Shown here: positions 551-777 of the stretch, piece by piece
How the letters are laid out: each line of letters opens with the position of its first letter
How positions within the stretch are numbered: position 1 is the stretch's first letter
Origin: Brucellaceae bacterium
GTDB lineage: Bacteria; Pseudomonadota; Alphaproteobacteria; Rhizobiales; Rhizobiaceae
Length of the DNA stretch: 10,429 nucleotides
NCBI GenBank assembly: GCA_031253705.1
Contig: JAIRVW010000089.1
Coordinates: 1 to 10,429, forward strand
Reading direction: 5' to 3'
The notes under the pieces: generated by a model
The model's database searches: none
What the model saw: only the letters and a program-made list of their open reading frames with translations
What the model was told of the DNA's origin: nothing
Made by a program: the position numbers and the translations under genes

Positions 551-709
551 GTGGAATCCCTCGCTTCGCCATCAGTTTTGCCAGCATTTCCCGGAAACAT
601 TTCCGGCGGCGGAGCTATGGGCTTATCTTCTCCTGCATTCGGTATTACCAAAACGGCCATGATTGCCCTGAAGACAATCACCTCGAAAACGACCACCAAA
701 ACGGTCTGA
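551..709 (+). CDS. Thr/Lys-rich leader peptide of asd (putative attenuator peptide)
   Basis: This is an open frame of 52 codons starting GTG, with AGGAG (539-543) 7 nt upstream, and ending TGA at 707-709. Residues 1-30 are nondescript (Ser, Pro, Gly, Ala). Residues 32-52 hold 8 Thr, 4 Lys, 3 Ile and 1 Met among 21 residues, ending MIALKTITSKTTTKTV. All four amino acids derive from aspartate through aspartate semialdehyde, the product of the next gene. The layout recalls the E. coli thr operon leader peptide (thrL): regulatory codons just before the stop, then RNA hairpins. ATG codons at 617 and 659 are in frame and could start shorter versions, but neither has as good a ribosome-binding site. 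The inferred role is cis regulation, not a stable protein. Confidence 0.6.
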   Translation: MESLASPSVLPAFPGNISGGGAMGLSSPAFGITKTAMIALKTITSKTTTKTV

Positions 710-710
710 T

Positions 711-777
711 CCCTTGGCCTGCTCACCCTCTCCCGGGTTAGGCCCGGGGCGGAGAACCTGCGTGGCCACGGGTTTTC
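711..777 (+). promoter_or_regulatory. asd: Putative transcription attenuator of asd (competing hairpins)
   Basis: Two mutually exclusive structures can be drawn. The terminator-like hairpin pairs AACC (755-758) with GGTT (771-774) and CGT (761-763) with ACG (768-770), with a two-base bulge and a GGCC loop; it runs into TTTT at 773-776. The alternative pairs CCCTTGGCC (711-719) with GGCCACGGG (764-772), 8 of 9 positions, and destroys that hairpin. The 711-719 arm begins 1 nt after the leader stop codon, so a ribosome reaching the stop would cover it and favour termination. A ribosome stalled on Thr or Lys codons would leave it free. A GC hairpin, CCCGGG-TTAGG-CCCGGG (732-748), lies inside the alternative. 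The weak point is the short U-tract. Confidence 0.5.

Follow-up and report, generated by a model that had tools for sequence, protein, structure and literature searches.

The window analyzed here, a stretch of 10,429 nucleotides (nt), comes from a genome that is 62% complete and close to Pseudochrobactrum. It carries a gene whose product is 99% identical to a Pseudochrobactrum saccharolyticum protein and which we take to be asd, a name adopted from a preliminary description of the same DNA that fits the known features of the family. Lysine, threonine, methionine, and isoleucine, as well as diaminopimelate for the cell wall, all derive from the product of Asd. Upstream of asd lies a short open reading frame (ORF) ending in a cluster of Thr and Lys codons, preceded by a candidate promoter.

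499 to 526, + strand: candidate promoter TTGAC-N17-TAAAAG, recognized from its sequence and the conserved position of TTGAC
539 to 543, + strand: Shine-Dalgarno sequence AGGAG of the leader ORF, recognized from sequence, 7 nt before the GTG
551 to 709, + strand: leader ORF of 52 codons with a GTG start and a TGA stop at 707-709; the Thr/Lys cluster lies within the last 21 codons
671 to 703, + strand: putative control codons AAG ACA ATC ACC TCG AAA ACG ACC ACC AAA ACG, from sequence and family comparison
800 to 804, + strand: Shine-Dalgarno sequence AGGAG of asd, recognized from sequence
813 to 1844, + strand: asd, aspartate-semialdehyde dehydrogenase, an ORF of 343 amino acids

Translation of the leader ORF yields a 52-amino-acid product with the C-terminal end ...ITKTAMIALKTITSKTTTKTV, in which T, K, I, or M account for 16 of the last 21 residues, and a gap of 103 nt separates the leader stop from the asd start. 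The preliminary description had reported these properties, together with two downstream segments, 711-719 (CCCTTGGCC) and 764-772 (GGCCACGGG), and a hairpin at approximately 752-777 with TTTT at 773-776; all were present, and every position held when rechecked against the window sequence. The same genome contains the leader region once more, in a slightly altered version at one end of a different contig (L296, G000:C405:1-1500), which suggests a mixed-strain assembly.

The ORF had been read as a Thr/Lys leader peptide controlling asd, and a conserved reading frame in relatives had been proposed as the check. For each asd upstream region, the best ORF tail within 330 nt of asd was scored by the number of T, K, I, and M in its last 12 residues. 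The family sample comprised 98 of 101 genomes, as G006, G043, and G044 were without a full asd match and were omitted. A score of at least 7 of 12 was reached by 88 of the 98 regions versus 2 of the 98 reverse complements, and by 1.3% of 1,960 dinucleotide shuffles treated with the same selection rule; these controls rule out a chance Thr/Lys ORF, and the conserved frame supports the proposed leader peptide. For the analyses below, 89 leaders were kept. Six regions had no ORF at 6 of 12 (L022, L039, L052, L082, L088, and L095), and three more were omitted from the structure tests, namely, L023, with its leader far upstream, and L089 and L097, from AT-rich reduced genomes.

The last 12 residues of the 89 leaders consisted of 41% T, 23% K, 5.6% I, and 2.3% M, values enriched by selection because the leaders were chosen at a score of at least 6 of 12. 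Judged by this composition, Thr and Lys carry the leader signal, and Ile and Met hardly contribute. The commonest leader end was KTTTKTV-stop, and in 72 of 89 leaders the final Thr or Lys codon lay two codons before the stop. Counting back from the stop, codons 2 to 7 varied most at their third position, which was not so in the stop-adjacent codon.

Among relatives identified by name, 79 of 80 loci reached at least 7 of 12 (a raw count); those with a leader included Pseudochrobactrum, Brucella, Mesorhizobium, Phyllobacterium, Agrobacterium, Aureimonas, and Bartonella. When the 101 family genomes were searched with a DNA pattern that joins TTKTV-stop to the GGCC motif after it, 17 matches in 16 genomes were obtained. 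All of them lay directly 5′ of asd except the second copy, at a contig end, in the genome of the window; the pattern in reversed form gave none. A covariance model derived from this region in 55 family sequences was applied with strict filters to 297 genomes of the order; 49 of them gave a single match apiece, and 12 of these 49 belonged to the window's own family. In a further search, of 100 out of 295 loci, the 113 matches included antisense ones, and the resulting alignment (A2) did not enter any count. Of the 37 matches from other families, 28 were inspected and 27 precede asd, with ORF tails scoring 6 to 11 of 12; the match in L134, with no asd visible, looks spurious. In a sample of approximately one genome per family of the order (53 genomes, reduced to 49 with the window's own set aside and G114, G116, and G147 omitted), 19 of 49 asd upstream regions reached a score of 7, one of them from the window's own family, and 30 fell below this threshold; 11 of these 30 scored 5 or 6, with tails that were similar in some cases and dissimilar in others. 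In other orders of the class, an asd match was found in 103 of 115 genomes, and the 29 loci nearest by Asd, besides the window, were inspected. One of these (L219) belonged to the same order and had no leader, and another (L246) had no recognized start; of the 27 remaining, a Thr/Lys leader was found in 1 (L231). By these comparisons, the leader element is widespread in Hyphomicrobiales and absent or unrecognized in many of its families. In L231, the ORF tail TTTKKTKTVA precedes asd and is followed by GGCCCGC...GCGGGCC and TTCGTC. By eye this resembles a classical attenuator, unlike the helices described below for the family, and is perhaps independent.

Short leaders, with approximately 11 to 13 codons from the last in-frame ATG, were noted in L016, L047, L060, L062, L066, L075, L087, L181, and L190 and contained Ile besides Thr and Lys. 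In two of these, L016 and L066, the ATG lies only 8 to 11 nt after the −10 position, so that their transcripts may be leaderless. Leaders of Bartonella (L163 and L169) end in IIGHKKTTKKII, which is Lys and Ile rich with fewer Thr. The N-terminus MRGLLMALFAFDFPGH, or its end, was common to leaders of Mesorhizobium, Aminobacter, and similar genera (L010, L027, L028, L165, L196, and others). Such shared N-termini bear on whether the peptide itself could act in trans like peTrpL, its Thr/Lys richness then being a property of the peptide. The N-terminus MRGLLMAL.AFDFPGH recurs in some genera, and peTrpL of Sinorhizobium meliloti has a role in trans (excerpts of PMC7298713); however, N-termini vary widely among genera, while the Thr/Lys codons stay clustered at a constant spacing from the stop, which makes action in trans very improbable.

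For transcription to include the leader, it must start upstream of it; the preliminary description had named a start downstream of 709 as an outcome that would speak against its reading. Such a start is unlikely, because TTGAC-N17-TAAAAG lies at 499-526 and TTGAC is conserved 5′ of the leader. Of 89 family leaders, 70 have a TTGAC 160 to 225 nt 5′ of their stop, versus 4 of 89 reverse complements; for 19 short leaders, the distance from the last TTGAC to the stop was 71 to 86 nt. From the position of the candidate promoter, transcription would start near 532-535. A consensus promoter and terminator scan was uninformative. The placement of TTGAC supports an arrangement in which a promoter lies 5′ of a leader ORF ending in a Thr/Lys codon cluster.

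The region 3′ of the leader stop was strongly patterned. Helices in it were assessed by a partner-swap test, in which the pairing energy of a segment with its own partner is compared with that obtained with the partner from another genome, and on a structure-blind MAFFT alignment of 55 sequences. Relatedness inflates both the z values and the covariation counts, and controls on the same sequences matter for that reason. The following pairings were considered.

711 to 749, + strand: H1, a putative antisequestor hairpin with pairs 711-714/746-749 and 716-721/739-744, weak pairs 725-728/735-738, and the loop at 729-734
726 to 733, + strand: 5′ strand of P1, CCCTCTCC, anti-Shine-Dalgarno-like, covarying with 790-797
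790 to 797, + strand: 3′ strand of P1, GGAGAGGG, identified by covariation, ending 2 nt before the asd Shine-Dalgarno sequence
731 to 749, + strand: P2, an alternative hairpin (731-738/742-749) predicted by folding with 707-719 masked, sharing 739-749 with H1
752 to 777, + strand: P3, the hairpin first described as a terminator, weakly covarying and read here as a variable spacer hairpin

In the preliminary description, the 752-777 hairpin was an intrinsic terminator and 711-719/764-772 its antiterminator, that is, classical transcription attenuation. The window offers both segments, and the hairpin folds stably there and has its TTTT; many of the 55 sequences keep GGCC in it. The hairpin also covaries, albeit weakly, its values on the MAFFT alignment being reached by 19 and 47 of 500 shuffles. 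The antiterminator pairing did not covary. In the 65 of 89 leaders whose stop lies more than 100 nt from the last base of the asd start codon, its swap gave a z of −1.3, with 201 of 2,000 permutations as good, and on the MAFFT alignment its percentage paired was reached by 348 and its covariation score by 490 of 500 shuffles. The partner of 711-719 is instead 739-749. Of the two helices expected to covary, the hairpin thus did so weakly and the antiterminator failed to. Nor does the hairpin carry a conserved U-tract: between the leader stop and asd, TTTTT occurs in 2 and TTTT in 16 of 89 leaders, and by eye the hairpin was not seen in short-leader relatives. The consensus scan reported no terminator in 250-1950, which is weak evidence since it also missed the 1870-1892 hairpin. 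This hairpin, GGCGCGG-TTT-CCGCGCC followed by a T-run, is an evident terminator after asd. The 752-777 terminator with its 711-719/764-772 antiterminator is therefore unsupported and was rejected on the missing covariation of the antiterminator and the missing conserved U-tract, the two features by which a thr/trp-type attenuator would be recognized, and classical transcription attenuation as first drawn appears distinctly improbable.

Two helices absent from the preliminary description, H1 and P1, did covary. With the first 18 nt after the stop paired against nt 24 to 62, H1 had an energy of −22.3 kcal/mol with its own partner versus −18.7 kcal/mol when swapped (z, −11.8; 0 of 2,000 permutations; n = 89). 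For P1, with the H1 loop paired against a stretch that runs from 40 to 8 nt 5′ of the last base of the asd start codon, the values were −11.6 versus −10.0 (z, −8.4; 0 of 2,000 permutations; n = 89); a first version with fixed windows gave a z of −4.5 (0 of 2,000). A control pairing swapped among the family leaders gave a z of −0.7, and P2 hardly covaries (z for its region, −1.8; 71 of 2,000). With one genome per family (n = 25), z was −4.0 for H1 (0 of 5,000) and −2.6 for P1 (31 of 5,000), and the controls gave +1.6 and −0.9. This set comprised the window and 24 of the 49 order-level regions, drawn from those scoring at least 5; left out by hand were L248, from the window's own family, and L267, L279, L280, L285, and L292, which were from that family or were not Thr/Lys leaders.

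On the MAFFT alignment, none of 500 shuffles reached the percentage paired or the covariation score of P1, and those of H1 were reached by 5 and 9, respectively. When H1 was slid by +1 column, covariation was 0.238 versus 0.224 in register and 42 versus 12 cells were changed on both sides, with fewer cells paired (73.0 versus 81.6%); this was put down to MAFFT misregistering two clades. Sliding P1 by −1 column tied its covariation at 0.237, again with fewer cells paired. Two-sided changes in P1 include CTCACC/GGTGAG in L017, CCCCTCC/GGAGGGG in L029, CTCTTCC/GGAAGAG in L083, and CGCTCCCC/GGGGAGCG in L112. Both helices are also kept in L163, of Bartonella. In several short-leader relatives, an extra hairpin seen by eye (e.g., CGCTTGTC/GACGAGCG) competes with P1 for its 5′ strand.

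The two helices also hold constant positions relative to the genes. H1 begins 0 to 2 nt after the leader stop in all 89 leaders (the search window being the first 18 nt from there), and in the window its 5′ arm, 711-721, begins 1 nt after the stop. For the 3′ strand of P1, the median distance from its end to the asd start is 17 nt, and this distance is at most 20 nt in 73 of 89. No four-T run was found within 8 nt after P1 in any of the 89. Thus, P1 is a covarying helix within the asd ribosome-binding region, as is characteristic of translation attenuators. In the window, it ends at 797 and the AGGAG of asd occupies 800-804, so the helix does not include the Shine-Dalgarno sequence itself. Together these comparisons support a structure in which H1 directly follows the leader stop and its apical CU-rich segment would pair alternatively, as P1, with a purine strand 5′ of the asd Shine-Dalgarno sequence. 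The window had no Rfam match at gathering scores, and 480-840 had none up to an E value of 1, and a lysine riboswitch or another riboswitch was rejected on this basis.

The C-rich segment 711-734 could also be read as the start of a Rho-dependent output. After ribosome release at the leader stop, this C-rich, G-poor RNA would load Rho, H1 or a stalled ribosome would hide it, and P1 would be secondary. In excerpts of PMC12218461, uORF-dependent attenuation of an S. meliloti DUF1127 gene needs accessible C-rich codons. A Rho output would leave the covariation of P1 between the H1 loop and the asd ribosome-binding region unexplained, and we regard it as unlikely.

We consider it reasonably probable that the leader peptide serves to attenuate asd in response to the supply of Thr and Lys, with the initiation of translation as the most likely point of action. 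A short ORF rich in codons for amino acids made from the Asd product lies 5′ of a biosynthetic gene, as in other leader-peptide attenuators. The output is likely translational because the conserved helix nearest asd, P1, sits at the ribosome-binding region; the element would thus work like translation attenuation, although it is not filed here as a classical case, since P1 in the window stops short of AGGAG. A ribosome covers approximately 12 nt beyond the first base of its A-site codon. At the leader stop of the window it would therefore reach to approximately 719, the end of 711-719, and at the last Lys codon to approximately 710, a placement that fits the earlier proposal that 711-719 is coverable by a ribosome at the stop. 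As long as charged tRNA is plentiful, translation would run through to the leader stop, where the ribosome would cover 707-719 and block H1; P2 and P1 would then form, and P1 would hinder binding of the 30S subunit at asd. When Thr or Lys is short, the ribosome would stall on the codon cluster and leave 711-721 free, and H1 would fold before the 3′ strand of P1 is transcribed and be kinetically trapped, permitting asd translation. We infer that H1 excludes P1.

Folding predictions agree with the early steps of this scheme. H1 was the lowest-energy fold of the nascent window RNA with 711 onward free, and nascent RNA with the stalled footprint, leaving the 5′ arm free, formed at least 6 H1 pairs in 76 of 89 leaders. 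With the stop-codon footprint masked, the window formed P2, which shares bases with H1, in its place. Equilibrium folding of the complete RNA, with the ribosome footprint at three positions, did not reproduce the switch. P1 pairing was high in every state. Compared with a ribosome at the stall position, one at the stop raised it in 37 of 89 leaders and lowered it in 39, and the Shine-Dalgarno sequence of asd became less accessible at the stop in only 20 of 89 and more accessible in 41. As P1 dominates at equilibrium in all ribosome states, the switch must be kinetic. The barrier from nascent to final fold was at least 10 kcal/mol in 69 of 89 leaders and 18.4 kcal/mol for the window, as estimated by a direct-path heuristic that can overestimate; the median among the 82 whose folds differ was 17.8, the nascent fold not being H1 in every case. 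A trapped H1 is plausible on these models and is the weakest link of the scheme.

Coexistence of H1 and P1 as a pseudoknot could in principle weaken their mutual exclusion. The two together might set basal asd translation, with the ribosome simply melting H1. The internal loop of H1 looks long enough in many relatives to accommodate P1 with the lower stem intact. However, the H1 loops of some short-leader relatives have approximately 10 nt, nearly all of them P1 strand, and in the window P2 competes with H1. A pseudoknot of this kind seems quite doubtful, and alternative pairing of H1 and P1 is retained as the preferred reading.

Several known systems share features with the asd leader. A main survey of proteobacterial attenuators, that of Vitreschak et al. 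from 2004, reportedly does not list asd. In Escherichia coli, thrL contains Thr and Ile codons at which ribosomes stall, and an intrinsic terminator acts on thrABC. The asd leader is alike in its Thr-codon-rich ORF and in controlling a gene of the same pathway and differs in combining Thr with Lys, in its target, and in having no conserved terminator. In the erm and cat translation attenuators, the position of the leader ribosome decides whether the downstream ribosome-binding site is sequestered, as is proposed here for asd; those systems respond to antibiotic-induced stalling, control resistance genes, and do not sense amino acids. The trpL attenuator of S. meliloti uses a transcription terminator, by which it differs from the asd leader. 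In excerpts of PMC10117765, this rnTrpL/peTrpL system of a member of the same order likewise places an amino acid gene under the control of a leader ORF. Its trpL is leaderless, which may also hold for the short-leader relatives described above, and, as a further difference, the system yields an sRNA. Actinobacterial cys leaders, as far as excerpts of PMC1262725 describe them, also encode leader peptides without obvious terminators. In the actinobacterial LEU element of the same source, a run of leucine codons pairs with the Shine-Dalgarno sequence; unlike this, in the asd leader a segment 3′ of the stop would pair beside the Shine-Dalgarno sequence and be held in a hairpin abutting the stop. 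The asd RNA motif RF01732 is a structured RNA named for the same gene but is from Lactobacillales (excerpts of PMC2864571), and the window lacks an Rfam match. The sRNAs AbcR and alpha-r14 (NfeR1) present a CU-rich unpaired or loop segment complementary to ribosome-binding sites and act in trans, whereas the segment of the asd leader would act in cis (excerpts of PMC7143759).

The closest precedent is the SEP5 small ORF of Sinorhizobium meliloti, which contains six codons for Thr and three for Lys toward its 3′ end and lies in the 5′-UTR of a gene named "aspartate dehydrogenase" (Hadjeras et al. 2023; excerpts of PMC10117765), presumably asd. SEP5 is translated, as seen by Ribo-seq and by Western blotting of a tagged product, and was called "possibly a leader peptide" and "conserved only in Sinorhizobium" in the same excerpts. 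Compared by description rather than by sequence, SEP5 and the window leader are alike in codon content and location. The excerpted text of PMC10117765 gives no RNA structure or mechanism, whereas the comparisons made here place a leader of this kind in the majority of the family and in many other families of the order, together with two covarying helices. Apart from PMC10117765, no account of such an asd leader was found in the open-access literature searched. For one genus, Sinorhizobium, the idea of such a leader has thus been published in part, and the breadth of the element and the H1/P1 switch were not found in those excerpts.

Chances appear about even that the element represents a hitherto undescribed cis-acting class, widespread in Hyphomicrobiales, in which the leader ribosome senses two end products, Thr and Lys, and gates translation rather than transcription of asd, the gene at the branch point of the pathway, through co-transcriptional trapping and the hiding or release of an anti-Shine-Dalgarno loop carried in a stop-abutting hairpin. 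If true, this conserved switch would be the first worked-out control of such a kind for asd in rhizobia and their relatives in the literature searched, and it would give a role to the translated small ORF SEP5. It would also allow amino acid attenuation of a translational, kinetically trapped kind to be tested cleanly in alphaproteobacteria.
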